DNA of 21,274 nucleotides, from positions 1 through 21,274 of the forward strand of contig PWPN01000088.1 of the NCBI GenBank assembly GCA_003557125.1. Direction: 5' to 3'. The stretch's first letter is position 1. Every line of letters starts with the position of its first letter. Both the position numbers and the translations under genes were made by a program. The notes beneath the pieces are model-generated. The model made no database searches. It worked only from the letters and a program-made list of their open reading frames with translations, and was not told the origin of the DNA. Below are positions 1,059 to 21,203 of the stretch, piece by piece. Source of the DNA: Phycisphaerae bacterium. Lineage in GTDB: Bacteria > Planctomycetota > Phycisphaerae > UBA1845 > PWPN01.

Positions 1059-2786
1059 GTGTCACCTGCCATAATCTTCGATCTTCGCAGGGATTACCGT
1101 TCACGGATTACGAGAGCTGGCTTATTTTTCTCTCTCATCGCCATCTTGCCTGCCGGGTGTATGGTCGGGCCGGATCATGTCACACCGAATGTTCAGGCTC
1201 CTGACAACTGGAGCAGTCCGCACGAAGCACCCGAACCGACCGTTACGACCCAGCCGGCCGAAGCTGAAATCTCGCTGAGTGCGTGGTGGGGGAACCTGGA
1301 CGATCCCGTGTTGTCCTCGCTGATCGAACGAGCGCTCGACGAGAACCTCGATCTGCAACTGGCCGATGCTCGGATTCGACGGGCGATCGCCCTGCGTGGA
1401 GCGAGCTTTGCCGAGCTGTTCCCAGCCATCGGACTCGATTCCAGCTACCTGCACCAACGAACGGCTCGCAACCGCGTAGCCCGACGCGACTCGAGCGGCC
1501 CGTCAGCTACCCTTTCAAAGTCGGCGTCCAATATCACCGGTCTCGGGCCGCCGGCTGCGAACCTCAGATTCGGGGAGACGTCCGCCACGATCTCCCCACC
1601 CAGGCCGGGCGATCCTGCCCCGAACATCAACGTCACACGGTCGCGGACATTCGGGGGCCCGGGTGACGGGTTCCGGCGGGACAGTAATCTCTACGAAACC
1701 ATGCTCGGGGCGACCTGGGAGATCGATGTCTGGGGCAATATCCGTCGAAGCATCGAGGCTGCCGACGCGGACGTCCTGAGCAGCATCGAAGACCGTCACA
1801 GCGTGCTCGTCGGCCTCGTCGCTGAGGTCGCACGCAATTACATCGTCTTGCGCGGTACCCAGCGGCAACTCGAGATCACGCGGGAGAACATCGACATCCA
1901 GCGCACTACCGTCCAGACCAGCCAGACCCGTTTCGCGGCAAACCTGGCCACCGGTACCGATGTCCTCCAGGCGATCACACAGCTCAAACGGACGGAATCG
2001 GAAGTGCCGCCCTTAGAGGCACTGATTCAGGATGCGGCCTTTCGACTCAGCGTGCTCCTGGGACAGCATCCGTCCGCGCTGCTGGAGGAACTCATCGAGC
2101 AGCGACCGATGCCGTCAACGCCGGACATGTTGGCCATCGGATTGCCGAGCGATCTGCTGCGCAGACGGCCCGACATCCGTGCCGCGGAGCAGCGCCTGGC
2201 TGCTGAGACCGCTTTGATCGGTGTCGAAATTGCCGAGCTTTTCCCGCGGTTTTCGCTGACGGCCTCGTTCGGGCTTCAGACAGCCGACGCGGACCGCTAT
2301 CTTCATCGCGACAGTCTGGCGTGGGGATTCGGACCGGCCGTACGGTGGCGTCTCCTGGAATTCGGGCGCATCGTATCGAGCATCCGGGCCCAGGAGGAAT
2401 CCCAACAAGAGGCCCTGATCATCTACCATCAGACCGTTCTCAATGCGCTTCAGGAAGTGGAATCCTATCTGGCCACCTACCTCGCGGAGCGCCGGCGCGT
2501 CAGCGCACTCGAGGAGGTGAATGAGGCGAATCGTCGGGCGTTTGACCTGGCCAAGGAAGAATACGCAGTCGGCATGCTGGGCTTCCTGTCGGTGCTCGAC
2601 ACGCAACGTTCCCTGTTCGCCAATCAGACGGAGTTGATCCAGAGCCGCCAGCAGTCCCTCATCAACCTCGTCAATCTGTACGAAGCATTGGGCGGGGGCT
2701 GGTATGCCGATCTCGACGCGAGGGACATGCCGCGCGATGAACCTTACGCGGGTGAAAGGATGGAACAGGAGGCTCCGCCCGGTTGA
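1059..2786 (+). CDS. RND efflux outer-membrane factor, NodT/OprM-type lipoprotein
   Basis: This is a 575-residue TolC-like channel subunit that would carry substrates through the outer membrane. It starts at GTG 1059, with GGAGGA at 1045-1050. The signal peptide ends ILPAGC, then Cys34 followed by MVGPDH, the familiar lipidated start of NodT-type factors, although the lipobox -3 residue is Pro rather than Leu. Two OEP repeats follow: the first from about residue 80 with LDENLDLQLADARIRRA, the second from about residue 360 with DLLRRRPDIRAAEQRLAAE, plus the typical GFGPAVRWRLLEFGRI. It is longer than the usual 470-500 residues because a Pro/Gly/Ser/Thr-rich stretch of about 60 residues sits in the first repeat (about 145-210). 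It is the first gene of an operon with the adaptor and permease. Confidence 0.95.
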   Translation: MSPAIIFDLRRDYRSRITRAGLFFSLIAILPAGCMVGPDHVTPNVQAPDNWSSPHEAPEPTVTTQPAEAEISLSAWWGNLDDPVLSSLIERALDENLDLQLADARIRRAIALRGASFAELFPAIGLDSSYLHQRTARNRVARRDSSGPSATLSKSASNITGLGPPAANLRFGETSATISPPRPGDPAPNINVTRSRTFGGPGDGFRRDSNLYETMLGATWEIDVWGNIRRSIEAADADVLSSIEDRHSVLVGLVAEVARNYIVLRGTQRQLEITRENIDIQRTTVQTSQTRFAANLATGTDVLQAITQLKRTESEVPPLEALIQDAAFRLSVLLGQHPSALLEELIEQRPMPSTPDMLAIGLPSDLLRRRPDIRAAEQRLAAETALIGVEIAELFPRFSLTASFGLQTADADRYLHRDSLAWGFGPAVRWRLLEFGRIVSSIRAQEESQQEALIIYHQTVLNALQEVESYLATYLAERRRVSALEEVNEANRRAFDLAKEEYAVGMLGFLSVLDTQRSLFANQTELIQSRQQSLINLVNLYEALGGGWYADLDARDMPRDEPYAGERMEQEAPPG

Positions 2787-7385: not shown

Positions 7386-8049
7386 GCGCCGGGCGGATTC
7401 GACCAAGGCCATACCGGATCGACGGTACGTGTGATCGGCTGTGCGATCGTGCTCCACGCTCACCCGGAGCCGGTTTCGATTCCAGGAGCCCTTGCTCCAG
7501 TTCCCCGCCTTCCTCGAAACGCACTCTCTGTTTTCATGGCCGCAGGTTATCTCCAGCAGTCCGTCGCGTTAACCGCGTGTCGCCAAAGCCTTTCCGCGTC
7601 ATCCGCACAGGCGTTCCAGCCTGCGACCTTGGACTTACGCCACCCCGAACCGCCCCGTTCCGGCCCTGTTTCTCTCTCTTTCGACCGAAACTCTCTGATC
7701 TGTTTGGTCGACCCTCAATCCGTCCAAGGCTGCGTAACTCGTTGCGGCGTCGCTGCTTGCCGGACGGCCCCGCCCTGGCCGCGAATGAGTTCGAAACCAC
7801 ATACTTGCTCGTGCAAGTGGACCAGCGAAACACTTGCCCAAAGGGTGACCACACCACGCTTCATCTGAGTCAATGCTTCAATGGGGCCGTGCTCGGATGA
7901 GCACGGAAATTGCGGCGGTGAAGCTCGTGCGGCAATTCATCGGCATCGCTTCAGTCTTTCACATGCAATTCTGTATCACAGACTCTGCCTTGTAGTAAAT
8001 TTACTTTCCCATGCTTCCGTAAGCAAGAAACGTACTCGACGGACTTGCT
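7386..8049. other. Gene-poor stretch between the permease and the radical SAM fragment
   Basis: Overlapping open frames occur on both strands, but none has a convincing start site, hydrophobic pattern or recognisable family. They look like chance openings in GC-rich DNA. What I can see are hairpins: ACTTGC-TCGT-GCAAGT (7803-7818) and the longer one at 7875-7913, listed separately. I see no clear terminator after the pump operon. Confidence 0.5.
7875..7913. repeat. Single CRISPR-repeat-like hairpin, one copy only
   Basis: The segment starts GCTTCAATGGGG, holds a perfect 8-bp stem CCGTGCTC-GGAT-GAGCACGG (7887-7906) and ends AAATTGC. The layout (TTCAATGG lead, central palindrome, GAAA-type tail, about 37-39 nt) resembles repeat units of some CRISPR arrays. 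No second copy and no spacer ladder is present, so it is not called as an array. It may be a leftover repeat, a regulatory hairpin or chance. Confidence 0.3.
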
Positions 8050-8448
8050 ATGAATCAGGGATCAGACGAAGACCATTATGCCAGCAACGGCCGCGATTCG
8101 ATAGGTGATCGGATGGCACGACTCGAAGAAAGGGACTGCACCTATTTCACCACGGTGCGCGGCATGTGCCGCCAGTGTCGTAGCGTGGTGCCCGCCCGGG
8201 TGTTCTTCCGGGACGGACAGGTGTGGCAGCAGAGCCTGTGCCCAGGATGCGAAAACGAGCCGGTCCTGATCGCGGCCGACAAGGACTGGTACCTTGAGAA
8301 CGTCCTGCGCCTCCTGTCCGACCATGCGCCCCTGCGCGGTGCCCAACCCGGCGCGCGGGGCTGCCCACACGACTGCGTCCCGTGTGTCTGGCACGCATCG
8401 CTCTGTCAGCTCCCCGTGATCACGCCGCCACCACGGCGTCGTCGTTGA
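8050..8448 (+). pseudogene. Truncated radical SAM protein, N-terminal third (tetraether-synthase/MoaA-like)
   Basis: The 132-residue frame begins with a Cys-rich knuckle (MCRQC...SLCPGC, about residues 37-73) and the pattern RDGQVWQQSLCPGCEN...ADKDWYLENV. It then gives GCPHDCVPCVWHASLCQLPVIT (from residue 102), which matches the section just before the radical SAM CxxxCxxC motif in archaeal Tes-like and related bacterial proteins. The expected continuation, a CNLxCPxC-like motif, never appears in any frame. Instead the frame ends in a basic tail PPPRRRR and stops. It therefore lacks the iron-sulfur site and most of the enzyme and should be inactive. The ribosome-binding site is weak. The family call is from pattern memory and is moderately sure; the truncation is clear if the family is right. 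Confidence 0.6.
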
Positions 8449-8819: not shown

Positions 8820-8984
8820 GGTCGGTCTGTCGAGTGAGTCGGATATGCGACGTACGTCAATCCGGTTCGCACCGCCTTCTCAGTCGCCCTTCCTGCCTTT
8901 CTAGGCCGAAATGCAGGCCTCTTTCACACGCGATCCGGAAAGCAAAACGTGGATCGCATTGCCCTCACACACAGGAGAGCTTTG
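8820..8984 (+). promoter_or_regulatory. Long structured 5' leader of the RRM mRNA
   Basis: The leader holds several hairpins: CGGAT...ATCCG (8840-8864) enclosing the palindrome GACGTACGTC (8849-8858), AGGCC...GGCCT (8903-8920), and GCGATCC...GGATCGC (8930-8957) with a 14-nt A-rich loop. The last ends 15 nt before the AGGAGA ribosome-binding site (8973-8978). Long folded leaders are known for cold-induced RNA-binding and cold-shock mRNAs, so temperature control is plausible but not shown. Confidence 0.4.
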
Positions 8985-9287
8985 ATGGGCAAGAAATTGT
9001 ATGTTGGGAACATGGGGTACGATGTGGGCAGCTCCGAGCTGGAGCAGTTGTTCACGCCGCACGGCACGGTCCAGAGCGCCGAGGTGATCAACGACCGCAC
9101 GACCGGCCGAAGCAAGGGTTTCGGCTTCGTCGAGATGGGCTCCGACCAGGAGGCCCAGGCGGCAATCACGGCGCTCGATGGCAAGGATCACAGCGGCCGA
9201 ACCCTGACCGTGAACGAAGCCAAGCCGCGCGAAAGTCGCCCCGGCGGAGGTGGCGGTTATGGTAGCGGTGGTAACCGACGCTATTAA
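8985..9287 (+). CDS. RRM-domain RNA-binding protein, Gly-rich tail
   Basis: This 100-residue protein consists almost entirely of one RNA recognition motif (residues 3-80). RNP2 is LYVGNM (5-10) and RNP1 is KGFGFVEM, both with their aromatic RNA-contact residues. A Gly/Arg/Tyr tail follows, with GGGGGYGSGG. This is the layout of the small bacterial RRM proteins first described in cyanobacteria (Rbp), often cold-induced and thought to act on mRNA folding or localisation. The ATG at 8985 has AGGAGA at 6 nt. An upstream in-frame start at 8949 would add 12 unrelated residues and lacks such a site. It is a single-gene unit with its own promoter and terminator. Confidence 0.95.
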   Translation: MGKKLYVGNMGYDVGSSELEQLFTPHGTVQSAEVINDRTTGRSKGFGFVEMGSDQEAQAAITALDGKDHSGRTLTVNEAKPRESRPGGGGGYGSGGNRRY

Positions 9288-9511: not shown

Positions 9512-12500
9512 TTGCCCTGCGGCTTTTCCGGGGTCGGCAAATTGGATAAACCCTACAGACTGAGAGTGGCGGTCAACAGGGTTTTCAGGGATCTGACCCG
9601 GCGGGGATTGTTTTTCATTTCCCGCGGCCAAGATGGGGAGCTTCGCGACGAACAGCCGCTACGATCGGAGCTTCTCAGCGCCGACCAACTCAAGCAACAC
9701 GCCAGCTTATTTGCCCGTTCGCACGAGATCGATGAGCGTTGCGGGTATGACCGGTTGTTGCCGCGTTTGGCCGAGAACGAAGTCGCCCTCCTTCGCGCTT
9801 ACGAGCTCGTCACGAATGCCGTGGGACAGGGACGGCGTATCACACCCGCCTCCGACTGGTTGCTGGACAACTTCTACCTCATCGAATCACAGATCAGGAC
9901 GGCGAGGCGGCATCTTCCTAGAGAGTACAGCGCGGAACTCCCGCAGCTCGCAAACGGCCCACTGGCCGGCTATCCGCGTGTCTATGCCATCGTTATGGAG
10001 CTGATTTCGCATGTGGACGGCCGAGTCGACGGCGAAAACCTCACCTGCTTCGTGGCCTCCTACCAGACGGTCGCAACTCTGAAGATCGGTGAACTGTGGG
10101 CGATCCCGATCATGCTCCGTCTGGCCCTGATCGAAAACCTGCGCCGTGTTGCCGTCCGGATCGCGGCGTGTCGCCAGGGCTGCGACAACGCGATACTCTG
10201 GGCAGATCACATCCTGGAGATTGCCGAGAAGGAACCGAGAAATCTGGTGCTGGCCCTGGCCGACATGGTCCGCGAGGACCCTCCTCTCACCAGCGCGTTT
10301 GTCGCGGAATTCGCTCGTCGCCTGCGTGCCCAGAATCCGGGCCTGACCCTGCCCATGAGCTGGCTCGAGCAACAGCTTGCCGAGGCGAATCGCACCATCG
10401 AACAACTCATTGAGATAGCAAGCCAGAGCCAGGCAGCTGACCAGGTCTCGATGAGCAACAGCATCAGCAGCCTTCGATTTCTCTCGACGATGGATTGGCG
10501 CGAGTTCGTCGAGACAATGAGTGCCGTCGAGCACATTCTCCGCGGTGACCCAGCCGACATCTACAACAAAATGGATTTCGCCACCCGCGACCGGTACCGC
10601 CACGTGGTGGAAGACATAGCCAGACGCAGTCCTCTCGAGGAAGGCGAGGTGGCCGACAGGGCCATCCAGTTCGCGCGAAAACGCGTCACACGCATCGGCA
10701 ACGACGACCGCACGGCTCACGTGGGGTATTACCTCATTGACAAGGGACGCCCTCTCCTTGAGCGCGCGGTCGACCTCCGTCCCTCGATCACAATCATCCT
10801 CCAGCGCGTTGGTCGCCGCTGGCCGCTCCTGTCGTATATAGGAAGCATCCTCGCTTTGACGGTGATCCTAACAACGGCAGCCGCTCTCGCGGCCTCTCGA
10901 TACGGCGTGGGAGCCTCGGGCCTCTTGTTGCTGGGTGCCCCTTTTCTCCTGTGTGCAAGCCATTGGAGTGTTATGGCGGTGAGCTGGCTGGCCACCCGTC
11001 TTGCAGCTCCGAGAATGCTGCCAAGGATGGAATTCGCCACCGGGATACCGCCAGAATGTCGCACGATGGTGGTGGTGCCCACAATGCTCACGAGTGCCGA
11101 GGGCATCCAGGGCCTTCTGGACTCGCTCGAGCTGTGTTATCTGTCCAATCGCGACGCCCATCTTCACTTCGCGCTGCTGACCGACCTGTGCGACGCACCT
11201 CAGGAGAAGATGCCGGGCGATGAGGAACTCGTATGTCTGGTCAGCGACGGCATTGAAGAGCTGAATCAGAAATATGCAGCCGAGCGTGACGATGCCTTCT
11301 TCCTCTTTCATCGCCCGCGAAGTCTGAATGAACAGGAAGGCATCTGGATGGGTTGGGAACGCAAGCGCGGCAAGCTCGCCGAACTCAACGCGCTCTTGCG
11401 GGGGAAGGCGAGCGATCGATTCGGCGTAGTGGTCGGCCGGGCCGAGATTCTTCACGCGGTCAGGTTTGTTATTACTCTCGATACGGATACACAACTGACG
11501 CGCGATTCGGCGCGCGAGCTCGCCGGCACAATGGCCCATCCGCTCAACCGCCCACGGTTCGACCCGAATCTCGGACGTGTTGTCGAAGGTTATGGCATTC
11601 TCCAGCCGCGCGTGGGCGTTAGCTTTCCCAGTGCCGGCCGGTCGTGGTTTGCTCGACTCTGTGCCGTCGAACCGGGCATCGATCCCTATACCCGTACCGT
11701 CTCGGATGTGTATCAAGATCTTTTTGGAGAAGGGTCATACATCGGCAAGGGGATCTATGATGTGGATGCCTTTGAGCAGGCGCTCGGCGGCCGACTCCCG
11801 GAGAATCGCATCCTCAGCCACGACCTGCTCGAGGGTTCCCATGCAAGAGCGGGCTTGGTCAGCGACGTGGTGCTTCTCGAATCGCATCCCTTGTCTTACG
11901 CGGCCGACGCCGCCCGCCGGCATCGCTGGATCCGCGGCGACTGGCAGATCGCGCCGTGGGTGTTTCCGCGCGTTCCCGGCCCAGATGGCCGGCGTGTGGC
12001 CAACTGTCTCTCGACCCTTTCGCGATGGAAGATCTTCGATAACCTGCGCCGTAGTCTTGTGCCGATCGGGCTGGTTGCTCTTCTGGTGCTCGGGTGGGTC
12101 CTGCCGGGTCCACCTCTTTTCTATACTCTCATCGTCATCGGGATCATCGCCAGCCCGGCGATATTCATGGGGATCGTTGAACTCCCGCGCAAAGCACCAG
12201 ACCTTCCGACTGCGCTACACCTCAGGGAAGTTGCTCTCTCAGCGGGGAGGAATCTCGCCCAGGCCTTCGTCACGCTCGCCTGTTTGCCTTACGACGCCTT
12301 CGTCAGCCTCGACGCGATAGCTCGCGCTAAGGTGCGCGTGCTCTTCACGCGACGGAAGCTGCTGGAGTGGCAGACCACGGGCGACGCCGAGCGGAACGGC
12401 CATACCGGTCTGGCGGGTTTTTGTGCGTCGATGTGGACTGGGCCGGCCACTGCAATCGCCACCGCGCTGGTGGTGGCGGCCGTGCGCCCCGAGACCCTGT

Positions 12501-15500
12501 ACACGACAGGGCCCATTCTGGGGCTCTGGCTTCTCTCTCCCGTTGCGGCGTGGCGGTTGAGCCGTCCGATCGCGCCGCGCCGATCGCAACTGAAGGCCGA
12601 GGATTATGTTTTCCTCCAGAAGGTCGCCCGTCGCACCTGGCGTTTCTTCGAGACCTTCGTGGGGCCCGCGGACCACTACCTTCCGCCGGACAACTACCAG
12701 GAGCATCCCGTTGCGGCAGTCGCCCACCGCACCTCACCCACCAACGTCGGTTTGTCGTTGCTGGCCAATCTCGCCGCGTATGACTTCGGCTATATCTCTT
12801 CGAGGGAGCTTGTCGATCGTACATCCAAGACGTTCGCAACCATGAGAGAGCTCGAACGGCACCGCGGGCACTTCTACAACTGGTACGACACGCAGACCCT
12901 TCGCCCACTGCCTCCGCTCTACGTGTCATCCGTGGACAGCGGCAACCTCGGCGCGCACCTGCTCACGTTGCGTCCCGGATTGATGGAGTTGGCTCACAGG
13001 AAGATTGTTTCCCCGCGGACCTTTGAGGGGCTCAGGGACACGCTTCGAGTCCTCCTGGAGGTGGCGAGTGACCGGCATGTTCGACCCGAGGGGCCTTCTC
13101 CAGGCCCAACTCCTCCCGAGGTTGTGATTCATCTCCAACGGCTCGAAGAAGAATTACGGGTTGCGCCGCGAACGCTGGCTGCCTCACAAGTCCATCTGGA
13201 ACGCCTGGTGACGGTGGGAGTGAACCTCGCGGCAACACTGAGCACCGGTTCCGACGGTGAGGCGAAGTGGTGGGCCCAGGCCTTCGAGCATCAATGCCGG
13301 GATTTCCTGGATGACCTGCTCTCGCTTGCGCCGTGGTGCAAACTCCCGTCGCCGAGCGAGCTGATGTGGCGCCGTGGATCCGTCGAGCAGGTCCAGCGCC
13401 TGAGCGATCTCCGGACAACGCTTAGGCTCCTGGATGAGATTCCGACGCTACACGATGTCGAGGGGCTCGGCGCTACGATGGTGCAGTCCATCGATGAGAT
13501 TCTGGCCGACCTTCGCGGGCAGGGGCCGGCCGTGCCTGCTACGGAGCATGCGTGGTTCACACAGCTGCGCCACTCGATCATCGAGGCCGGTTGGCGCGCC
13601 GGCAAACGTCTGGCGGAGATCGAGAGCCTCGCATCGTGTTGCCAGGAAATGGCGGACTGCGACTACAGCCTTCTCTATGACAGGTCGCGGCATCTCTTTG
13701 CGATCGGCTACAACGTCGACGCCCATCGTCTTGACGCCGGCTTCTACGACCTCCTTGCTTCCGAGGCGCGACTCGGCAGCTTTGTCGCGGTCGCCCAGGG
13801 CAGAGTACCCCAGGAACACTGGTTCAGCCTCGGACGGCTCCTGACAGCCGCCGGCGGCGAGCACCCCCTGCTGTCCTGGAGCGGCTCCATGTTCGAGTAC
13901 CTGATGCCGCTCCTGGTCATGCCTACATTTGAGAACACCCTGCTGGATCGAACGTACCATGCTGTTGTGGAGCGACAGGTCGAGTACGGTCGCCAGCGTG
14001 GAATCCCATGGGGAATCTCCGAGTCCGGCTACAACGCCACCGATGTTCACCTCATCTACCAGTACCGCACATTTGGCGTACCGGGGCTCGGCCTCAAGCG
14101 AGGACTGGCAGACGATCTGGTCGTCGCGCCCTACGCCAGTGCTATGGCGCTGATGGTTGCGCCTGAGAAAGCGTGTGCGAATCTGCGTCGCCTGGCGAAG
14201 GACGGGCTGCTCGGCGCCCACGGTTTCCACGAGGCTATCGATTTCACTCCCTCGCGCGTCCCGCCCGGCCAACGCGGCGCGATTGTCCGTTCCTTCATGA
14301 CGCACCATCAGGGGATGAGCTTTCTGTCGATGGCCTACCTGCTGCTCGATCGCCCCATGCAGCGCCGCTTTCGGTCCGACCCGCTGTTTCGTGCAACCGA
14401 GTTGCTGTTGCAGGAGCGCGTCCCCAAGGCGGCCCCCTTCCTCCCCCACGACAGCAAGGCAACGGGATTCCGTTGGGATCCCGGAGGAGCCGAGGAGGCC
14501 TTCCGCGTTATCACCAATCCCCAGACCGCGGCGCCCGAGGTCCATCTCCTGTCCAACAGCAGATACCATGTCATGGTGAGTGCCGTTGGCGGCGGCTACA
14601 GCCGGTGGAAGGATCTGGCAGTCACGCGATGGGCGGAAGACTCCACTCGTGATTGCTGGGGAGCGTTCTGTTACCTGCGCGATCTGGATGGCGGAGAGTT
14701 CTGGTCTGCTACGTACCAGCCCACGCTCAAGCGGGGCAAGGCATACGAGACCGTCTTTTCCCTGGCTCGAGCGGAGTTCCGTCGCCGCGACGATGATGTC
14801 GTGACGCACACCGAAATCGCCGTCTCGCCGGAGGATGACATCGAGTTGCGCCGGGTCAGCATCTCGAACCGCGGACAGAAGCGGCGGATGATCGAACTGA
14901 CCAGTTATGCCGAGGTCGTCCTGGCGCCTCCGGCGGCCGATGCGACCCACCCGGCATTCAGCAAGCTCTTCGTCCAGACCGAGATCGTGCGTTCACGCCA
15001 GGCGATTCTCTGCACGCGTCGCCCTCGCTTGAGCGGGGAGCACCCCCCGTGGATGTTCCATCTGGTGGTGCTCCACGGGGCGGCCATCGGTGAGACTTCG
15101 TACGAGACCGATCGCTGCAAATTCGTCGGGCGCGGCCGCACCCTCGCGGATCCCGAGGCGATGCACGTCCCCGTGCTGTCCAATCGCGAAGGATCAGTTC
15201 TTGACCCCATCGTCTCGATCCGCAGCGCCGTGGCTGTCGAGCCCGACGACACGATCCGAATCGACTTTGTCACCGGTGCAGCGGATACGCGCGAGGCCGC
15301 GATGGCCCTGATCGAGAAGTACCAGGATGAGAGGATGATGGACCGCGTTTTCGATCTCGCGTGGACGCACGGTCAGGTCGTCGTCCGTCAGCTCGGTGCC
15401 TCTGAGGCCGATGCGCAACTCTATGGGCGGCTTGCTGGAGCGATCCTCTATGCCAACGCGCGGTGCCGCGCGCCGAGCGACCTCATGGCCCGCAACCGGC

Positions 15501-18355
15501 GCGGACAGTCCGGCCTGTGGGGGTACGGTATCTCCGGCGATCTTCCCATTGTGCTGCTGCGTATCAGCGACCAGGCCAACATCGAGCTCGTGAAACAGCT
15601 TGCCCAGGCCCATGCCTACTGGCGGATGAAGGGCCTTGTCGTCGATCTGGTTATTCTCAACGAAGACCAATCGGGCTATCGCCAGCCACTTCAAGACCAA
15701 ATCGTAGGCCTCATCGCTGCCGGGACAGAAGCCCATCCGATCGATCGCCCAGGTGGCATTTTTATTCGACGCAGCGAGCAAATATCCGACGAGGACAAGA
15801 CTCTGGTACAGGCAGTTGCCCGTGTGGTCCTCACCGACACCGCCGGCACTCTTGCCGAACAGGTCGAGCGTCGTCACCGTGCGGAAATCGCAGTCCCCAG
15901 GTTGGTCCCGGTCCGTGCCCGTCCCGAAGCCCCACGTACCCCAGAAGCGCCTGGAGCCGGCCTGGTTTATTTCAACGGGCTGGGTGGATTCACGCCCGAC
16001 GGCCGCGAATACGTCATTACGACGACGGGCGACAGCATGCCCCCTGCCCCATGGGCGAATGTGCTGGCGAATCCCGAGTTCGGCACGGTTGTGACCGAAT
16101 GCGGGGGCGGCTACACGTGGGCCGAGAACGCCCACGAGTTTCGCCTGACACCCTGGTACAACGACCCCGTCAGCGACGTCGGCGGTGAAGCGTTCTACAT
16201 CCGGGACGAGGAGACCGGCCGCTTCTGGTCACCCGCACCGCTCCCTGTACGCGGGCCTCTGCCGTACACCACGCGCCATGGGTTCGGCTATAGCGTCTTC
16301 GAATATACCGAAAACGGCATCTACTCTGAGATGTGGGTGTATGTTGCGACCGATGCCCCGGTGAAACTCTGCCGGCTGACGATTCGCAACTCGTCCGGCC
16401 GCACCCGCCGTCTGTCAGTGACCGGCTTTGTCGAATGGGTCCTGGGCGAACAACGGGCGAAGAATGCGATGCATATTGTGACCGAGATCGACCCGCAATC
16501 CGGAGCCCTGCTGGCACGAAATCCCTTCAACAGCGAGTTCCCCAAGCGTGTCGGGTTCTTCGCCGTCAGCGAACCACAACGCTCGGTAACTACCGACCGC
16601 ACGGAATTCCTTGGGCGTAATGGGACACCGGCCGAACCCGCAGCCATGGGCCGGGCCGGGCTCTCCGGAAAGAATGGACCGGGGCTTGATCCCTGCGCAG
16701 CCATTCAGACGGTGTTCGAGCTGGAGGACGGTCACGAGCGCGAGGTTGTTTTTATTCTGGGTGCCTCCCGCGATACCGCTGCGGCGCGCAACCTCGTCGG
16801 CCGTTTCTGCAACGTCAGCGGAGCGCGCACCGCCCTGGAGAGCGTGTGGGACTATTGGAGCCACACGCTCGGCGCGGTCCATGTTGAGACGCCCGATTCG
16901 TCAGTGAATTTCCTGGTCAATGGCTGGCTGCTCTATCAGACCCTCGCGTGCCGCGTCTGGGCGCGGAGCGGGCTCTATCAGTCAGGCGGCGCGATTGGCT
17001 ATCGGGACCAGCTCCAGGATGTCTTAGCCCTGATCCATGCCGAACCCCACCTGACGCGCGAGCACCTGCTGCGTTGCGCGGCACACCAGTTCCGGGAAGG
17101 CGACGTTCAACATTGGTGGCATCCACCGCTCGACCGCGGTGTGCGTACGCGGATTGCGGACGACTATCTGTGGCTGCCTTACGCCGTCTGTCGCTACGTC
17201 TCATGCACGGGTGATACCGGCGTGCTCGACGAGACTGTTCCTTACCTGGAAGGTCGCCCCGTGAGGCCGGATGAGGACAGCTACTACGACCTCCCGGTGC
17301 GGTCGGAGGAACTCGGGACGCTCTACGATCATTGCGTTCGTGCGATCGACAACGGACTGAAGTTCGGCGAGCACGGCCTGCCGCTCATGGGGTGCGGCGA
17401 CTGGAATGACGGCATGAATCTCGTCGGCGAGGGGGGCAAAGGGGAAAGCGTGTGGCTCGCCTTTTTCCTCTACGATGTGTTGAGACAGTTCAAGGAGGTC
17501 GCGCTGCGGTACGGGGACGTCGCATGCTCCGAGCGTTGCGAGACTCAGGCGGACAGGCTCCGTCAGTCCATCGAGCAGCACGGCTGGGACGGACAGTGGT
17601 ACCGGCGCGCTTACTTCGACGATGGCGAACCGTTGGGATCCGCCACCAATCCCGAGTGTCAGATCGACCTGATCCCACAGAGTTGGGCGATCCTTTCGCG
17701 CGCCGCAAATCCGGTTCGTTCGCGGACGGCGATGGACGCCATCGCCAGCCGCCTTGTCCGCCGCGACGCGGGGCTTGTCCAGCTCCTGGATCCGCCATTC
17801 GACAAGTCCCATCTGGATCCGGGTTACATCAAGGGTTACATTCCTGGCGTGCGGGAAAACGGTGGCCAGTACACGCATGCCGCCGTATGGGCCGCCATGG
17901 CCTATGCCGCCATGGGCGACGGCGACCGAGCCTGGGAGCTGTTGGCACTGATCAATCCCATCCACCACAGCTCGACAGCAGCGGCAATCCAAACCTACAG
18001 GGTCGAACCTTACGTGGTCGCCGCCGACGTTTACAGCAACCCGCAGCATGTCGGCCGGGGAGGCTGGACGTGGTACACGGGTTCCGCAGGCTGGATGTAT
18101 CGCCTTCTCACGGAGTCGTTGCTGGGCTTGCGGTTGAAGGTGGACCGCCTTCGTCTGGAGCCAGTCTTGCCGGATTCCTGGAAGTCGTTCAAGATTCATT
18201 ACCGTTACCGCGAGACACTCTATCACATCACCATCCACAAGAAGGGCGGCCAGGCTGTGACACGCCTGGTGCTCGACGGCCAGGAACAGGTCGACAAGAC
18301 CATTCCTCTCGTAGACGATCGCCAGGAGCACAACGTGGACGTGGACATGAGCTGA
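9512..18355 (+). CDS. ndvB: Cyclic beta-1,2-glucan synthase (NdvB/ChvB type)
   Basis: This giant inner-membrane enzyme (up to 2,947 residues) makes cyclic beta-1,2-glucans from UDP-glucose for the periplasm, where they serve osmotic adaptation and surface traits. The domains come in order. An N-terminal helical part carries LLPRLAENE and SDWLLDNFYLIE. Membrane helices lie at about 438-500, with further sets at 849-890 and 967-1019. The GT84 domain (about 515-830) has D657-T-D659 and HRWIRGDW (from 804). A glycoamylase-like cyclising domain (about 1030-1620, GH189-type) has WSGSMFEYLMPLL and GISESGYNATD. Two related beta-sandwich domains start near 1660 and 2165. A GH94-type phosphorylase-like domain ends the protein, with CGDWNDGMN (D2630, D2633), which trims chain length in this family. 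No ATG exists near the start: TTG 9512 or, with GGGG 8 nt upstream, TTG 9542. A stop at 9497 bounds the frame. It stands alone, with no obvious exporter beside it. Confidence 0.97.
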   Translation: MPCGFSGVGKLDKPYRLRVAVNRVFRDLTRRGLFFISRGQDGELRDEQPLRSELLSADQLKQHASLFARSHEIDERCGYDRLLPRLAENEVALLRAYELVTNAVGQGRRITPASDWLLDNFYLIESQIRTARRHLPREYSAELPQLANGPLAGYPRVYAIVMELISHVDGRVDGENLTCFVASYQTVATLKIGELWAIPIMLRLALIENLRRVAVRIAACRQGCDNAILWADHILEIAEKEPRNLVLALADMVREDPPLTSAFVAEFARRLRAQNPGLTLPMSWLEQQLAEANRTIEQLIEIASQSQAADQVSMSNSISSLRFLSTMDWREFVETMSAVEHILRGDPADIYNKMDFATRDRYRHVVEDIARRSPLEEGEVADRAIQFARKRVTRIGNDDRTAHVGYYLIDKGRPLLERAVDLRPSITIILQRVGRRWPLLSYIGSILALTVILTTAAALAASRYGVGASGLLLLGAPFLLCASHWSVMAVSWLATRLAAPRMLPRMEFATGIPPECRTMVVVPTMLTSAEGIQGLLDSLELCYLSNRDAHLHFALLTDLCDAPQEKMPGDEELVCLVSDGIEELNQKYAAERDDAFFLFHRPRSLNEQEGIWMGWERKRGKLAELNALLRGKASDRFGVVVGRAEILHAVRFVITLDTDTQLTRDSARELAGTMAHPLNRPRFDPNLGRVVEGYGILQPRVGVSFPSAGRSWFARLCAVEPGIDPYTRTVSDVYQDLFGEGSYIGKGIYDVDAFEQALGGRLPENRILSHDLLEGSHARAGLVSDVVLLESHPLSYAADAARRHRWIRGDWQIAPWVFPRVPGPDGRRVANCLSTLSRWKIFDNLRRSLVPIGLVALLVLGWVLPGPPLFYTLIVIGIIASPAIFMGIVELPRKAPDLPTALHLREVALSAGRNLAQAFVTLACLPYDAFVSLDAIARAKVRVLFTRRKLLEWQTTGDAERNGHTGLAGFCASMWTGPATAIATALVVAAVRPETLYTTGPILGLWLLSPVAAWRLSRPIAPRRSQLKAEDYVFLQKVARRTWRFFETFVGPADHYLPPDNYQEHPVAAVAHRTSPTNVGLSLLANLAAYDFGYISSRELVDRTSKTFATMRELERHRGHFYNWYDTQTLRPLPPLYVSSVDSGNLGAHLLTLRPGLMELAHRKIVSPRTFEGLRDTLRVLLEVASDRHVRPEGPSPGPTPPEVVIHLQRLEEELRVAPRTLAASQVHLERLVTVGVNLAATLSTGSDGEAKWWAQAFEHQCRDFLDDLLSLAPWCKLPSPSELMWRRGSVEQVQRLSDLRTTLRLLDEIPTLHDVEGLGATMVQSIDEILADLRGQGPAVPATEHAWFTQLRHSIIEAGWRAGKRLAEIESLASCCQEMADCDYSLLYDRSRHLFAIGYNVDAHRLDAGFYDLLASEARLGSFVAVAQGRVPQEHWFSLGRLLTAAGGEHPLLSWSGSMFEYLMPLLVMPTFENTLLDRTYHAVVERQVEYGRQRGIPWGISESGYNATDVHLIYQYRTFGVPGLGLKRGLADDLVVAPYASAMALMVAPEKACANLRRLAKDGLLGAHGFHEAIDFTPSRVPPGQRGAIVRSFMTHHQGMSFLSMAYLLLDRPMQRRFRSDPLFRATELLLQERVPKAAPFLPHDSKATGFRWDPGGAEEAFRVITNPQTAAPEVHLLSNSRYHVMVSAVGGGYSRWKDLAVTRWAEDSTRDCWGAFCYLRDLDGGEFWSATYQPTLKRGKAYETVFSLARAEFRRRDDDVVTHTEIAVSPEDDIELRRVSISNRGQKRRMIELTSYAEVVLAPPAADATHPAFSKLFVQTEIVRSRQAILCTRRPRLSGEHPPWMFHLVVLHGAAIGETSYETDRCKFVGRGRTLADPEAMHVPVLSNREGSVLDPIVSIRSAVAVEPDDTIRIDFVTGAADTREAAMALIEKYQDERMMDRVFDLAWTHGQVVVRQLGASEADAQLYGRLAGAILYANARCRAPSDLMARNRRGQSGLWGYGISGDLPIVLLRISDQANIELVKQLAQAHAYWRMKGLVVDLVILNEDQSGYRQPLQDQIVGLIAAGTEAHPIDRPGGIFIRRSEQISDEDKTLVQAVARVVLTDTAGTLAEQVERRHRAEIAVPRLVPVRARPEAPRTPEAPGAGLVYFNGLGGFTPDGREYVITTTGDSMPPAPWANVLANPEFGTVVTECGGGYTWAENAHEFRLTPWYNDPVSDVGGEAFYIRDEETGRFWSPAPLPVRGPLPYTTRHGFGYSVFEYTENGIYSEMWVYVATDAPVKLCRLTIRNSSGRTRRLSVTGFVEWVLGEQRAKNAMHIVTEIDPQSGALLARNPFNSEFPKRVGFFAVSEPQRSVTTDRTEFLGRNGTPAEPAAMGRAGLSGKNGPGLDPCAAIQTVFELEDGHEREVVFILGASRDTAAARNLVGRFCNVSGARTALESVWDYWSHTLGAVHVETPDSSVNFLVNGWLLYQTLACRVWARSGLYQSGGAIGYRDQLQDVLALIHAEPHLTREHLLRCAAHQFREGDVQHWWHPPLDRGVRTRIADDYLWLPYAVCRYVSCTGDTGVLDETVPYLEGRPVRPDEDSYYDLPVRSEELGTLYDHCVRAIDNGLKFGEHGLPLMGCGDWNDGMNLVGEGGKGESVWLAFFLYDVLRQFKEVALRYGDVACSERCETQADRLRQSIEQHGWDGQWYRRAYFDDGEPLGSATNPECQIDLIPQSWAILSRAANPVRSRTAMDAIASRLVRRDAGLVQLLDPPFDKSHLDPGYIKGYIPGVRENGGQYTHAAVWAAMAYAAMGDGDRAWELLALINPIHHSSTAAAIQTYRVEPYVVAADVYSNPQHVGRGGWTWYTGSAGWMYRLLTESLLGLRLKVDRLRLEPVLPDSWKSFKIHYRYRETLYHITIHKKGGQAVTRLVLDGQEQVDKTIPLVDDRQEHNVDVDMS

Positions 18356-18600
18356 CATCGCGTCCGTACATTCCGCCTGCCAGGCCATCCACGGCACGGT
18401 CAGCCTGCGTTCGCCCCTGACGTACAGCGACACTTGACAAGTGGCCGGTAGCCACCCGTATTGAGCACATCAACTTTAAGCCATTGGGCCGCAAGGGGTT
18501 ACTGATGCGCGTGAGGATGGCTACCGGAAATTCCTTGTTATCCTTATTGCGGCTACCTATAGTCATAGTGATGACAGGAGTGGCTTCGAAACGCAAGGCG
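18356..18600. other. Intergenic stretch after the glucan synthase
   Basis: No gene is seen. A perfect 10-bp inverted repeat, CCGGTAGCCA (18445-18454) and TGGCTACCGG (18518-18527), flanks a 63-nt interval and lies just upstream of the promoter at 18535. The left arm sits inside a local hairpin GTGGC-CGGTA-GCCAC. It could be an operator pair or a DNA or RNA stem. I see no clear terminator for the glucan synthase gene. Confidence 0.45.
18535..18563 (+). promoter_or_regulatory. Sigma70-type promoter in front of structured element A
   Basis: TTGTTA (18535-18540) and TATAGT (18558-18563) are separated by exactly 17 bp. Transcription would start near 18570, about 30 nt before the conserved RNA element and 170 nt before the GlsB-like gene. 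Confidence 0.65.
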
Positions 18601-18601
18601 A

Positions 18602-18723
18602 CTCCGGTCAAAACATGAGTCGGATGACTAGATGAAGGGCAAGTCGCCTCGGCGACGGGCCCGATGACGAGTAAGCCGACGAGGTAGAACGCCCTCAGGT
18701 GTTCCTCCTCGTCGGCTTTTTTT
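18602..18723 (+). ncRNA. Structured leader element, copy A (candidate attenuator or riboswitch)
   Basis: This non-coding element is homologous to the one at 19921-20039. Stem P1 is TCCGG (18603-18607) with TCGGA (18620-18624). Next comes GAAGGGCAA, where GGGC (18637-18640) pairs with GCCC (18659-18662) around an inner AA/GG mismatch and the hairpin GTCGCC-TC-GGCGAC (18643-18656). An unpaired GACGAGT leads into a 12-bp terminator stem (18673-18684 with 18707-18718) capped by AACGCC-CTCA-GGTGTT. Seven Ts follow. The U-run ends 4 nt before the AAGGAG of the next gene, so the hairpin can control it. A separate small RNA ending at this terminator is the alternative. Confidence 0.75.
18673..18723 (+). 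terminator. Strong intrinsic terminator inside the leader of the GlsB-like gene
   Basis: AAGCCGACGAGG (18673-18684) pairs perfectly with CCTCGTCGGCTT (18707-18718) and is followed by a run of Ts to 18723. Its position between promoter and ribosome-binding site points to attenuation rather than end-of-operon termination. Confidence 0.8.
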
Positions 18724-18740
18724 ATGCAAGGAGCTGAACC

Positions 18741-19016
18741 ATGGTTATGGGAGTAATCGGCTGGATCGTGCTGGGGCTCATCGCCGGCTACATTGCAAGC
18801 ACGCTGGTAAACACGCGCGGCGAGGGGCTCGCTTTTAACATCCTGCTCGGCATCGTCGGCGCGGTGCTGGGTGGCTTGCTCTTCTTGCTCTTCAATGCTA
18901 TTGGCGCTACTGGAGTGACGGGCTTCAACGTCTGGAGCCTTCTGGTCGCCGTGGTCGGCGCAGTGGTGCTCCTGGTGGTCTGGCATGCCATCCAACGCTC
19001 GGCCCGGCAGGTGTGA
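18741..19016 (+). CDS. GlsB/YeaQ/YmgE-family stress membrane protein
   Basis: This 91-residue inner-membrane protein has three hydrophobic segments (about 4-22, 30-54 and 63-86) joined by short Gly-rich turns. The motif GWIVLGLIAGYIAS...GLAFNILLGIVGAVLGG is the hallmark of the GlsB/YeaQ/YmgE (transglycosylase-associated) family. Members are small stress-induced membrane proteins whose biochemical role is not settled. The ATG at 18741 has AAGGAG (18728-18733) at 7 nt. The gene lies directly behind structured element A and its terminator hairpin, so its expression probably depends on read-through or refolding of that leader. It opens the stress-gene cluster. Confidence 0.92.
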   Translation: MVMGVIGWIVLGLIAGYIASTLVNTRGEGLAFNILLGIVGAVLGGLLFLLFNAIGATGVTGFNVWSLLVAVVGAVVLLVVWHAIQRSARQV

Positions 19017-19054
19017 ACGTCACGAACACGATGTTGATGTGAAAGGATCGCCTC

Positions 19055-19263
19055 ATGTATCCGATTATGTATGCGGTGTTCTTCGTCGTTGCCATTATGC
19101 CAACGCGGTCGAGAGGCAGGCGGACGGTGTCAAGAGGGCTGAGATCAAGAAGGCCGAAGGCAAGCAGGACGAACTGGTGGGTCGGATCCAGAAGCGGACC
19201 GGCGAAACTCGTGAAGCGGTCGAAAAAGCGATCAAGAATGCCTGCTCGTCCTCCTGCCATTAG
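19055..19263 (+). pseudogene. Broken CsbD-like stress gene, frame split after a membrane-type start
   Basis: An ATG at 19055 with a good AAAGGA (7 nt spacing) starts MYPIMYAVFFVVAIMP, which resembles the first membrane segment of small DUF1328-like proteins, but this frame then becomes meaningless Arg/Ser-rich sequence. In another frame, from about 19111 to the TAG at 19261-19263, the reading is NAVERQADGVKRAEIKKAEG, then KQDELVGRIQKRTGETREAVEKA. That is the C-terminal half of a CsbD-family stress protein. The CsbD frame has no start of its own short of an ATG inside the preceding gene. So a start region and a CsbD tail meet out of frame, through a deletion or a one-step frameshift near 19100. 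The CsbD call is fairly sure; the DUF1328 likeness is weak. Confidence 0.5.
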
Positions 19264-19281
19264 GCTTGGGACGACGCTGGA

Positions 19282-19296
19282 GGGTCGCCACGACCC
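19282..19296 (+). repeat. Short perfect hairpin after the CsbD-like remnant
   Basis: GGGTCG-CCA-CGACCC is a 6-bp GC-rich stem with a 3-nt loop, 18 nt after the stop. It lacks a T-run, so it could be an RNA-stabilising 3' hairpin rather than an intrinsic terminator. Confidence 0.4.
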
Positions 19297-19325
19297 CGGG
19301 TTGAATCGATGGATGTGCGCATTCC

Positions 19326-19347
19326 CGATCCGTGGGCTTACGGATCG
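19326..19347 (+). promoter_or_regulatory. Perfect hairpin upstream of the 40-residue membrane peptide
   Basis: CGATCCGT (19326-19333) pairs perfectly with ACGGATCG (19340-19347) around a GGGCTT loop. It ends about 14 nt before the AGGAG of the small gene at 19374. It may shield the message or modulate translation; no T-run follows. Confidence 0.4.
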
Positions 19348-19373
19348 TGGCTAACTCGGACAGGAGACTTATT

Positions 19374-19496
19374 ATGCTGACGACATTAGCTACAACCATT
19401 ACGCCTGCTCTAGGCAACACCGTCTACCTCGGCGGTGGTTTCTTGGGGACGGTCCTGATCATTCTCTTGGTGGTGTGGTTGGTTCGCCGCGTTTGA
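19374..19496 (+). CDS. Small single-pass membrane protein (40 residues), unknown function
   Basis: The ATG at 19374 has AGGAG (19362-19366) at 7 nt and opens a 40-residue frame beginning MLTTLATTITPALGNTVYLG. The second half is one hydrophobic helix (GGGFLGTVLIILLVVWLV) ending in Arg-Arg-Val, so the C-terminus is probably cytoplasmic. Short Gly-then-Leu/Ile membrane peptides of this sort are common beside CsbD and GlsB-type stress genes, but I cannot name the family. It is too short for most gene callers. The good ribosome-binding site, sensible membrane topology and position in a same-strand cluster support it as real. Confidence 0.65.
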   Translation: MLTTLATTITPALGNTVYLGGGFLGTVLIILLVVWLVRRV

Positions 19497-19539
19497 CTGA
19501 TCACAACACCGAGGGTGGGCCTTAGCCGACCCGGTGAAG

Positions 19540-19566
19540 CATGGTCGCCTGGATTCGGCGGCCATG
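19540..19566 (+). promoter_or_regulatory. 10-bp hairpin upstream of the BMC shell gene
   Basis: CATGGTCGCC (19540-19549) pairs with GGCGGCCATG (19557-19566), with one G-U pair and a 7-nt loop. It lies in the spacer before the BMC gene and covers the upstream in-frame ATG at 19564, which speaks for the start at 19600. Confidence 0.4.
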
Positions 19567-19599
19567 GGAAAGGTCCCTGACAAAACGAGCGGAAGGACC

Positions 19600-19884
19600 A
19601 TGACACACGAAGACGCAATCGGACTCATTGAGACCCAGGGGCTCGTGGGCAGCATCGAGGCGGCCGACGTGATGTGCAAAGCGGCCAATGTCGAAATCGT
19701 CGGCAAGGAGAGCATCGGTGGAGGCTACGTTACGGTGATGGTGAAGGGCGACGTTGCCGCCGTCAAAGCGGCCGTCGAAGCCGGGGCTGAAGCGGTCAAT
19801 CGTGTCGGCGGCAAGCTCATATGTGCCCATATCATCGCCCGGCCGCATGACGGGGTGAGTTCCCTCTTGCCCAGGCAGCAGTAA
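19600..19884 (+). CDS. BMC-domain microcompartment shell protein (hexamer type)
   Basis: The 94-residue product is one BMC domain. It opens EDAIGLIETQGLVGSIEAADVMCKAANVEIVG, followed by GGGYVTVMVKGDVAAVKAAVEAG and the closing strand KLICAHIIARPH, as in PduA/EutM-like hexameric shell tiles. The hexamer-edge Lys (CKAANV) is present. The start is set at ATG 19600 because the BMC fold begins there and GGAAGG lies just upstream; ORF extension to 19534 adds only non-family residues. No pentamer (BMC-P), trimer (BMC-T) or cargo enzyme gene is nearby; its neighbours are stress and regulatory genes. It could be a tile for a compartment encoded elsewhere, or a repurposed shell protein. Confidence 0.95.
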   Translation: MTHEDAIGLIETQGLVGSIEAADVMCKAANVEIVGKESIGGGYVTVMVKGDVAAVKAAVEAGAEAVNRVGGKLICAHIIARPHDGVSSLLPRQQ

Positions 19885-19920
19885 GAAGATGCACGGAGCC
19901 ATCGGTGAAGTACGATTCAG

Positions 19921-20039
19921 CTCCGATGACAATTTAAGTCGGAAGACGAGGCGAAGGGCAACTCGGCTTGGCCGGGGGGCCCGTTTAAGAGTAAGCCGGC
20001 GTGGTCAGGCACCTCAGGGTGTTTCATCGCGTCGGCTTT
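19921..20039 (+). ncRNA. Structured leader element, copy B (paralogue of copy A)
   Basis: It shares with copy A, in the same order, CTCCG, AGTCGG, GAAGGGCAA, GGGCCCG, GAGTAAGCCG, CTCAGG and GTCGGCTTT. Stems are kept while bases change: P1 is TCCGA/TCGGA, the central hairpin is CTCGGC-TTG-GCCGGG (19962-19976) inside GGGC/GCCC (19956-19959 with 19979-19982), and the last stem is AAGCCGGCGTG (19993-20003) with CGCGTCGGCTT (20028-20038) using G-U pairs. The cap is CACC/GGTG (20010-20021). The tail is only CTTTATT, so termination would be weaker than in copy A. It sits 47 nt upstream of the MpsC-like gene. No strong promoter is seen; TACGAT (19911-19916) is a possible -10. Confidence 0.72.
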
Positions 20040-20085
20040 ATTCGCTTGCGGTTGTGAAAGACAGCTGCGACCAGGGAGAAACGCT

Positions 20086-20505
20086 ATGGCTAAACTTAAT
20101 CCAGATCCGGCGCTTAATTCAGCAATGGCACGCGAGATTGCGAAGGCGGCGAGTCTTTTCGAGGAGCAGAGGACGGGCAATGCACCAAAGTCCGTGACCG
20201 TGGTGCTGACCGACACCACACTGGTGATCACGCTGCACGGGGTCTTGTCGGAGGCTGAGAAGGCCCTGGCAAGAAAGCCCGAGGGGGCCGCGCAGATCCA
20301 GGACTTTCACCGAAAGCTGTTCGTCAACGCCTCCAATTCGTTGCGGCAGGAGATCAAGCGGATCACGGGGGTGGAGGTGCGCGAGGCTACCGCGGAAATC
20401 GAGCCGGCTTCGGGCGCCGTGGTGGGCGTGTTCACAACCGGCACCACGGTACAGGTGTACTTACTCGCCCATCCCGTGCCTTCGGAAAGTTGGAATCAGC
20501 AGTGA
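20086..20505 (+). CDS. MpsC-family protein (DUF2294)
   Basis: The 139-residue soluble protein matches the DUF2294/MpsC family. A helical start (MAREIAKAASLFEEQRTG) is followed by the core APKSVTVVLTDTTLVITLHGVLSEAEKALARKPEGAAQIQDFHRKLF, then helix NSLRQEIKRITGVEVREATAEIEPASG and a last strand. The name MpsC comes from a sodium-linked membrane potential system; the protein itself has no membrane segment and its exact role is not established. The ATG at 20086 has AGGGAGA upstream. It follows structured element B and leads a probable operon with csrA (36 nt gap) and the host-attachment-like gene. Confidence 0.85.
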   Translation: MAKLNPDPALNSAMAREIAKAASLFEEQRTGNAPKSVTVVLTDTTLVITLHGVLSEAEKALARKPEGAAQIQDFHRKLFVNASNSLRQEIKRITGVEVREATAEIEPASGAVVGVFTTGTTVQVYLLAHPVPSESWNQQ

Positions 20506-20541: not shown

Positions 20542-20742
20542 ATGTTGATCTTATCGAGGGGAATACGTGAATCCGTGGTTGTCGGAGACCCCGACGGCGT
20601 CGGGCGCCTTTTCAAGGTCACGGTGCTCGAAATTGATTGCGGGAACGTGAGGCTGGGCTTTGAGGCCGGTGACGACTTCCCTGTCCATCCTTGGGAAGCG
20701 TGGGAACGGATATGTGCTGGTGACAGGCGGGACGCGGGCTGA
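20542..20742 (+). CDS. csrA: CsrA-family carbon storage regulator, atypical
   Basis: This 66-residue protein of the CsrA/RsmA family represses or stabilises mRNAs by binding GGA motifs at ribosome-binding sites. It begins MLILSR, keeps Arg6, and ends with the strand and helix NVRLGFEAGDDFPVHPWEAWERI. Two oddities stand out. The position of E. coli Arg44, a main RNA-contact residue (VHR), is Pro50 here (VHP). A six-residue insertion (around PDGVGRLF) also lengthens the turn after Gly15-Asp16. The start has AAAGGAG at 8 nt; that GGA could allow self-control. It lies 36 nt after the MpsC-like gene and 17 nt before the next, so it is co-transcribed. RNA binding may be weakened or retuned. Confidence 0.9.
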   Translation: MLILSRGIRESVVVGDPDGVGRLFKVTVLEIDCGNVRLGFEAGDDFPVHPWEAWERICAGDRRDAG

Positions 20743-20759: not shown

Positions 20760-21203
20760 ATGGGTAAGACGAACGTCGAAGTGCGAGACCACGCCTGGTT
20801 TGCGTTGGTAGACGCGGAGCATTGTCGGCTTTTGTGCTGCTGCTTGACCCGGCAGGGTACGCAACACGTTGACGAGTATGGCAGGTTTGAAAACACATTG
20901 CCGGAGGCTGAGCACGCACGGCCGATGGGCCAGGACGGCATGACGCACGACATCGAAGAGGAGGAGCGCCGCTTCGGGGCTCAGATCGTCGATTGGCTGG
21001 GGAGACAAGCCAGGAAGCACAAGATCGATCGCCTGGTCATCTTCGCGCCCCCTCGGATGCTCGGCGTTCTCCGGAAGGCTTCGTCCGGCCTGCTGGCAGG
21101 GCACCTTAAGGAGCTTGAGGGAAATCTGATGCGCCTCGACGCAGGTCAATTGGCGCAACATCCGATGGTCCGCCAACTGGTCGCTACCACCCACAGTCGG
21201 TAA
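20760..21203 (+). CDS. Host-attachment protein family (baeRF-like)
   Basis: The 147-residue protein fits the host-attachment (Host_attach, baeRF) family. A first strand, HAWFALVDAEHCRLLCC, is followed by a variable loop (ENTLPEAEHARP), helix EEEERRFGAQIVDWLGRQARKHKIDRLVIFAPPRMLGVLRKAS, and helices to LVATT. The family was named from Agrobacterium attachment mutants and is related to the eRF1 central domain, so a role in translation or stress is possible; function is not settled. Two or three adjacent Cys residues (CCC) in the second strand are unusual. AGGGAGA precedes the ATG at 20760. It is the third gene of the MpsC-csrA operon. Confidence 0.85.
   Translation: MGKTNVEVRDHAWFALVDAEHCRLLCCCLTRQGTQHVDEYGRFENTLPEAEHARPMGQDGMTHDIEEEERRFGAQIVDWLGRQARKHKIDRLVIFAPPRMLGVLRKASSGLLAGHLKELEGNLMRLDAGQLAQHPMVRQLVATTHSR

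Follow-up and report, generated by a model that had tools for sequence, protein, structure and literature searches.

ANTAR is an RNA-binding output domain of response regulators, and its target RNAs are paired short hairpins with six-base loops. RAT elements measure about 30 nt and lie near sugar-transport genes, and the targets of CsrA present a GGA in a conserved hairpin loop. The MpsC domain is named after the MpsABC system. We know of no established molecular role for MpsC and, to our knowledge, little is known about the control of stress responses in the Planctomycetota. The leaders of the ANTAR systems (EutV, AmiR, NasR) are reported to carry an antiterminator that excludes an intrinsic terminator (PMC3369931, PMC3369936, PMC8934654). 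In the literature searched, mention of the MpsC domain (DUF2294 / PF10057) was confined to a single paper on an unrelated subject.

Elements of the window

The window is the whole stretch of DNA analysed, 21,274 nt of a contig from a Phycisphaerae bacterium (PWPN01000088.1). It carries two elements, copy 1 and copy 2, whose features are given below. Core coordinates are based on the 48-copy alignment, and the P0 repeats were taken from the sequence.

8949-9287: RRM gene
18535..18563, + strand: copy 1 promoter, -35 TTGTTA 18535-18540, 17 nt, -10 TATAGT 18558-18563 (assigned by consensus match only)
18577..18605, + strand: copy 1 P0 inverted repeat, GGAGT 18577-18581 / ACTCC 18601-18605
18619..18680, + strand: copy 1 core
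18619-18623 / 18676-18680, + strand: copy 1 P1, GUCGG / CCGAC
18627-18629 / 18670-18672, + strand: copy 1 P1b, ACU / AGU
18637-18640 / 18659-18662, + strand: copy 1 P2, GGGC / GCCC
18643-18647 / 18652-18656, + strand: copy 1 P3, GUCGC / GCGAC
18673..18723, + strand: copy 1 intrinsic terminator, 5' arm including the P1 3' strand
18741..19016, + strand: GlsB-type membrane protein (Transgly_assoc, PF04226), start codon 16 nt past the model match
19894..19925, + strand: copy 2 P0, CGGAGC 19894-19899 / GCTCCG 19920-19925
19938..20000, + strand: copy 2 core
19938-19942 / 19996-20000, + strand: copy 2 P1, GUCGG / CCGGC
19946-19948 / 19990-19992, + strand: copy 2 P1b, third pair G.A, broken
19956-19959 / 19979-19982, + strand: copy 2 P2, GGGC / GCCC
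19962-19966 / 19972-19976, + strand: copy 2 P3, CUCGG / CCGGG
19993..20042, + strand: copy 2 intrinsic terminator, U tract interrupted (CTTTATT)
20086..20505, + strand: MpsC-B (PF10057), led by copy 2
20542..20742, + strand: CsrA-family protein (PF02599), after MpsC-B

A sequence-only reading had proposed that 18602-18723 and 19921-20039 align along their length, and they do: identity per column averages 77% across the 212 columns of alignment A1, and 68% when the alignment was guided by the model. Both copies folded beyond shuffled sequences (z -6.16 for copy 1 and -5.58 for copy 2; 0/200 shuffles each). Each ends, as the same reading had it, in a terminator-like hairpin before a stress-type gene: a long hairpin with a U tract is followed by the Transgly_assoc gene (18741) or the MpsC gene (20086). 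The compensation seen in the central hairpin was also recovered, P3 being GUCGC/GCGAC in one copy and CUCGG/CCGGG in the other.

Other details had to be corrected. The blocks described as unpaired are partly paired: the GGGC of GAAGGGCAA sits in P2, the AGT of GAGTAAGCC in P1b, and AAGCC at the base of the terminator. CTCAGG, listed among these blocks, forms the end of the terminator hairpin and differs from one relative to another. Copy 1 does not start at 18602 but earlier: its promoter boxes lie at 18535 and 18558, and the inverted repeat ahead of the core opens at 18577. The reading had allowed for a simple local duplication; by identity, however, the window copies rank each other only 21st and 26th of 47, and judged on this measure the pair is not a recent local duplication.

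Homologues and Rfam searches

A pattern made of two conserved blocks matched at least 120 stretches in named genomes, mostly by chance. Among these matches, 25 copies outside the window had the same surroundings in other genomes, so the similarity of the window pair exceeds chance. Seed A2 was built from 24 of the 25 outside copies and the window's two; L002 (a duplicate of L001), L075 (a chance match within coding sequence) and L025 (truncated where its locus ends) were left out. Its outside copies come from Planctomycetota, including L109 from Anammoximicrobium, a member of that group. With model R1, 48 copies were recovered from 33 loci at E ≤ 1e-12, a total that includes the pair in the window. 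The core model R2 and its alignment A5 were made from 42 of the 48 rows of A4, with L083:5600, L094:4434, L094:6521, L064:6774, L054:33 and L025 omitted.

Within the window's phylum, R1 matched 10 of 294 genomes at E ≤ 0.001. R2 matched 15 of 392 genomes at E ≤ 0.01, and 12 of these at E ≤ 1.1e-6. One complete chromosome (G373) carries eight copies; the assembly of the window's own genome is 55.7% complete, and its named relatives point to Planctomycetota as its phylum. Degenerate copies exist (e.g. L085:982), and the G381 copy appears degenerate.

A covariance-model search of the whole window against Rfam 15 (E ≤ 5) gave no match at either element and two weak matches elsewhere (5777-5828 and 8049-8073). 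Searches on relatives gave no match at an RNA, either for L083, L094, L102, L151, L161 and others (E ≤ 2) or for eleven further loci (E ≤ 1). Rfam 15 presumably contains the c-di-GMP-I and T-box models, and the result is consistent with the earlier view that the elements are not c-di-GMP-I (GEMM) aptamers. The two outcomes named beforehand as counting against a new family, a known Rfam family and a lack of further homologues or covariation, were thus not encountered. Both window elements are members of an uncatalogued structured RNA family. Its proposed cis-regulatory nature is supported by homologues, two-sided pair changes, upstream promoters and coherent downstream genes, without a match in Rfam.

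Structure of the core and terminator

Inspection of A4 and A5 showed the core, of about 62 nt, to be a single extended hairpin with conserved internal loops and a P3 loop variable in length and sequence. In the 48 copies, 93.1% of the cells of P1-P1b-P2-P3 were paired. Two-sided changes were found in 12 of 18 core pairs, against 5.1 in shuffles (0/500), a test in which relatedness is still contained, and 2-5 in slid controls; in the terminator they were found in 15 of 20 pairs (48 copies). R1, the model to which alignment A4 was fitted, includes P2, P3 and the terminator in its structure but lacks P1 and P1b, so the fit does not favour the pair counts of the latter two. In P1b, a helix of three pairs midway along the core, columns 18-69 show U-A, A-U, C-G, G-C and U-G pairs, and A-U is exchanged for G-C in columns 16-71. 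P1 is the weakest helix, with one invariant pair and outer pairs broken in 22/48 and 8/48 copies. In L155, P1 is kept through a G-C to A-U exchange while the corresponding terminator pair is lost. Upstream of the core, the 55 nt of the P0 region fold beyond shuffles (z < -1.5) in 23 of 52 copies.

Promoters and downstream genes

The best sigma70-type promoter upstream of the core scored 14.89 on average, versus 11.65 +/- 0.19 in shuffled sequences (0/60; 52 copies, L142 being omitted because its locus recurs as L209). The -10 box lay 41-77 nt upstream of the core in 42 of the 52 copies. The copy 1 promoter (TTGTTA-17-TATAGT) scored 16.3. No good promoter was found upstream of copy 2 by the same sigma70-type scoring, and this copy may be transcribed from the preceding gene.

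With a heuristic caller, a same-strand start codon was found within 110 nt downstream in 40 of the 61 copies with downstream sequence (65 copies minus four without it; median 84 nt); for window copy 2 a wrong short frame was called, owing to the locus end, the real gene starting at 20086. For some copies no following gene is evident. Thirteen copies are followed by MpsC-B, one of them at a distance of about 350 nt. Among 30 other downstream proteins, 19 were above the cut-off of a Pfam family and 11 were not. The 19 were a PAS histidine kinase with a receiver, KaiC, CheB/CheR-PAS, CsrA, sigma-70, DUF3309, Ice_binding (2), SufB/D, CsbD, Transgly_assoc (2), BON (2), OmpA, DUF1328, DUF2934, DUF5670 and a radical SAM protein 430 nt distant. 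Beyond those 30 there were the window's GlsB, another gene for sigma-70 and a protein to which no family was assigned. We read this as a general-stress set. In G373, a CheB/CheR-PAS gene and, after it, a receiver-MpsC gene lie downstream of one copy; the next copy leads csrA.

Predicted switch

In the alignment, the 3' strand of P1 (CCGAC) is located inside the 5' arm of the terminator, and with this common strand P1 and the terminator are mutually exclusive. Folding was calculated for 46 of the 48 copies, two being cut off. In 43/46 copies the full RNA formed 12 or more of the 20 terminator pairs, and the RNA without the terminator 3' arm formed at least four of five P1 pairs in 42/46. Forcing the core in the full RNA had a median cost of 9.5 kcal/mol. 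By calculation, the gene is thus preceded by a terminator that an upstream helix excludes, as in an attenuator.

On these models, each element very probably leads the mRNA for a stress gene at its 5' end and acts as a transcription attenuator, with P1 as its probable antiterminator. The leader reads as off by default, terminating unless P1 is held. The nascent RNA would fold its core first. With nothing holding P1, the more stable terminator would capture the common strand and transcription would stop; a trigger bound to the core would hold P1, so that the polymerase could read through and the stress gene be expressed. The most likely trigger would be an MpsC-domain protein that antiterminates by binding the core; some genomes encode the candidate as a fusion to a receiver, next to the gene for a CheB/CheR-type sensor. 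Taken as a whole, this model of an attenuator with a P1 switch and a candidate MpsC trigger is the best explanation, at somewhat under an even chance.

Linkage with MpsC

In 19 of 65 copies a gene of 126 aa, MpsC-A, diverges from the RNA at a distance of 123-353 nt; at the other 46 it was absent within 700 nt on the divergent side. MpsC (PF10057) is present in 28 of 392 genomes: 9 of the 12 RNA-bearing genomes versus 19 of the 380 others (Fisher 2e-9, uncorrected for relatedness or travel on shared islands). RNA-bearing was defined here as an R2 match at E ≤ 1.1e-6, so that G270 (R1 only, 36 bits) was scored negative, as were G345, G354 and G374, whose copies were found later around MpsC; G322, with a partial MpsC (29.5 bits), was omitted from the MpsC-B-like class. 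MpsC was not detectable in three of the 12 RNA-bearing genomes (G033, G220 and G381). The diverged copies around MpsC in the initially negative G354, G345 and G374 (R1, 18-38 bits) lie mostly on the same strand just downstream of MpsC-A, with three tandem copies behind it in G354.

Fusions of a receiver to MpsC are encoded by the genome of the window, where the fusion adjoins a CheB-domain frame, by G111 and by G373, which suggests that MpsC can act as an output domain. MpsC-A had no clear structural or PDB-sequence relative, and nothing in these comparisons marked MpsC as RNA-binding. As MpsC-B is also a led gene, the linkage could partly reflect targets. From gene neighbourhoods and co-occurrence, MpsC as the trigger is the leading, if tentative, idea.

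In the phylum of a Nitrospira genome, MpsC was found in 23 of 100 genomes, and 30 of 36 MpsC matches were turned into loci. R1 matched 14 of these 30 loci at E ≤ 0.004 (two pairs overlap). The control gave one match at E ≤ 0.1 in 388 kb from 50 other loci, unmatched for terminators and phylum. Ten of the Nitrospira-phylum RNAs are divergent from MpsC and lie 11-37 nt before a NuoL-like frame; one of them, L249, matches the core model weakly and was read by eye. The one NuoL-like frame scanned was Proton_antipo_M. R1 also matched 3 of 4 MpsC loci in the phylum of a Desulfobacterales genome (best 45 bits) and 0 of 2 in that of a Verrucomicrobia genome. Core-only scores of these look-alikes were low, at most 22.2 bits, and the RNAs are best called related-looking to the window family.

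Alternative explanations

The main rival, rather unlikely in our estimate, is a metabolite or ion riboswitch with the same P1/terminator switch, in which a small molecule bound to the internal loops would turn the genes on. Its ligand would have to do with stress, inorganic carbon, sodium or membrane potential, and MpsC would be a target or a neighbour. Conserved loop bases within an aptamer-like stem, a closing helix that overlaps the terminator, the lack of detectable MpsC in three of the 12 RNA-bearing genomes and the NuoL-like genes led by the Nitrospira-phylum look-alikes all fit it. Against it, MpsC-A in many cases lies upstream of the RNA or diverges from it and is thus not the led gene there, and the mixed gene set suggests no ligand. 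A riboswitch had been suggested, as a possibility, in the sequence-only reading; the MpsC linkage speaks for a protein trigger no less well. Control of the attenuator by a different RNA-binding protein, for instance CsrA or an RRM protein, is improbable. The GGA in the 5' strand of the core is nearly invariant, csrA is present in the window cluster and directly behind an RNA copy in G373, and an RRM gene lies in the window at 8949-9287. However, the GUC-GGAU-GAC hairpin that would present this GGA, although paired in 90.3% of cells, has two-sided changes in 0 of 3 pairs and its outer pair is broken in 10/48 copies.

A small RNA acting in trans, or as a protein decoy, that has a promoter and a terminator to itself and precedes genes by accident has a similarly poor chance. 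It would account for the promoters, the strong terminators, the copies without an evident following gene and the three tandem copies behind MpsC-A in G354. The downstream genes are nevertheless coherent, and the gap from terminator to start codon in copy 1 (16 nt), like those of the ten Nitrospira-phylum look-alikes (11-37 nt), leaves no space for a second promoter. Still less is to be said for an absence of regulation, the elements being passive intergenic insulators or copies of a terminator cassette that is repeated or mobile, which we consider very improbable. The patchy distribution (15/392 genomes at E ≤ 0.01), the several copies per cluster and degenerate copies such as L085:982 would agree with a cassette; the two-sided changes in the core, upstream of the terminator, the L155 copy, which keeps P1 by G-C to A-U while losing the matching terminator pair, and the promoters immediately upstream speak against it.

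Comparison with known systems

If MpsC is the trigger, response regulators would have a further RNA-binding output domain. The wider proposal is possible, if a shade more doubtful than the trigger itself: MpsC (PF10057, DUF2294) would be a new family of RNA-binding antiterminators with these leaders as targets, occurring in three phyla or more, linked to two-component systems via receiver-MpsC fusions, and controlling stress genes in Planctomycetota and a NuoL-type ion/inorganic-carbon system in relatives of Nitrospira. An attenuator family that marks stress genes would give a handle on stress-response control in the Planctomycetota.

As in ANTAR regulators, a receiver is fused to an output domain and the leaders combine a terminator with an antiterminator, here probably P1. 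The three fusions scanned contained Response_reg and MpsC only, with no ANTAR domain. The output domain here is instead MpsC (PF10057), with a putative role in RNA binding, and unlike the ANTAR targets the leader consists of a single long hairpin, interrupted by internal loops and closed by a variable P3 loop. With c-di-GMP-I (GEMM) it shares an aptamer-like hairpin before a terminator and a GGGCAA followed by a hairpin, but the Rfam model gave no match and the GGGC pairs here with the GCCC directly behind P3. A protein-held, internal-loop hairpin overlapping a terminator would be equal in logic to BglG/LicT (RAT) antitermination; unlike RAT, the core has about 62 nt and precedes stress genes. 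Finally, the Nitrospira-phylum look-alike RNA, placed between MpsC and a NuoL-like gene, recalls the Mps/Dab NuoL-type systems (MpsABC), whereas the genes led in Planctomycetota are of stress type and MpsC is found fused to a receiver.

RNAs beside MpsC genes in other genomes

A conserved RNA with the form GTAGGG...CAGTACAAGCC plus a terminator was found at ten loci from a Nitrospira-containing phylum (L240, L245, L247, L248, L249, L250, L251, L252, L253 and L254). At all ten it was flanked by a divergent MpsC (PF10057) gene on one side and by a NuoL-like gene on the other, the latter lying 11-37 nt downstream of the terminator. No Rfam match to this RNA was obtained in the six of the ten loci that were scanned (L240, L245, L248, L250, L252 and L254). 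At another MpsC locus, L223, the gene was followed by three near-identical copies of the window-family RNA in tandem (1346-1721, minus strand), of which only the first two were closed by a complete terminator.

Shorter RNAs (GGCAGA...TAGGCC, 'type B') with a terminator at the 3' end were located at four loci:

L163, 1924-2021: type B RNA
L164: type B RNA
L165, 2040-2137: type B RNA
L167, 1147-1245: type B RNA

Each was preceded by a promoter-like stretch and had MpsC directly 5' on the same strand. The type B RNAs are possibly distant relatives of the window RNA family.

Receiver-MpsC fusion

Contig C53 of the window's own genome encodes a 284-aa protein in which an MpsC domain is joined to a response-regulator receiver (L162, 425-1279, minus strand). 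A CheB-domain frame begins at 1808 on the opposite strand.

Genes and frames around the window copies

9512-18355: single 2947-aa frame, directly upstream of the stress-gene cluster
18985-19263: frame with a partial CsbD match (last part only; 24.5 of 40 bits, below cut-off)
19374-19496: 40-aa frame that matches the end of DUF3309 below the cut-off (18.4 of 22.3 bits)
19600-19884: lone BMC-domain gene (microcompartment shell type), directly 5' of copy 2
20760-21203: Host_attach/baeRF family 12 protein, last gene of the cluster

The 18985-19263 frame looks like a gene fragment. A putative counterpart of the BMC-domain frame was noted at L085 (724-936), where it precedes that locus's own RNA copy. 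The 2947-aa frame appears to resemble cyclic beta-glucan synthases.
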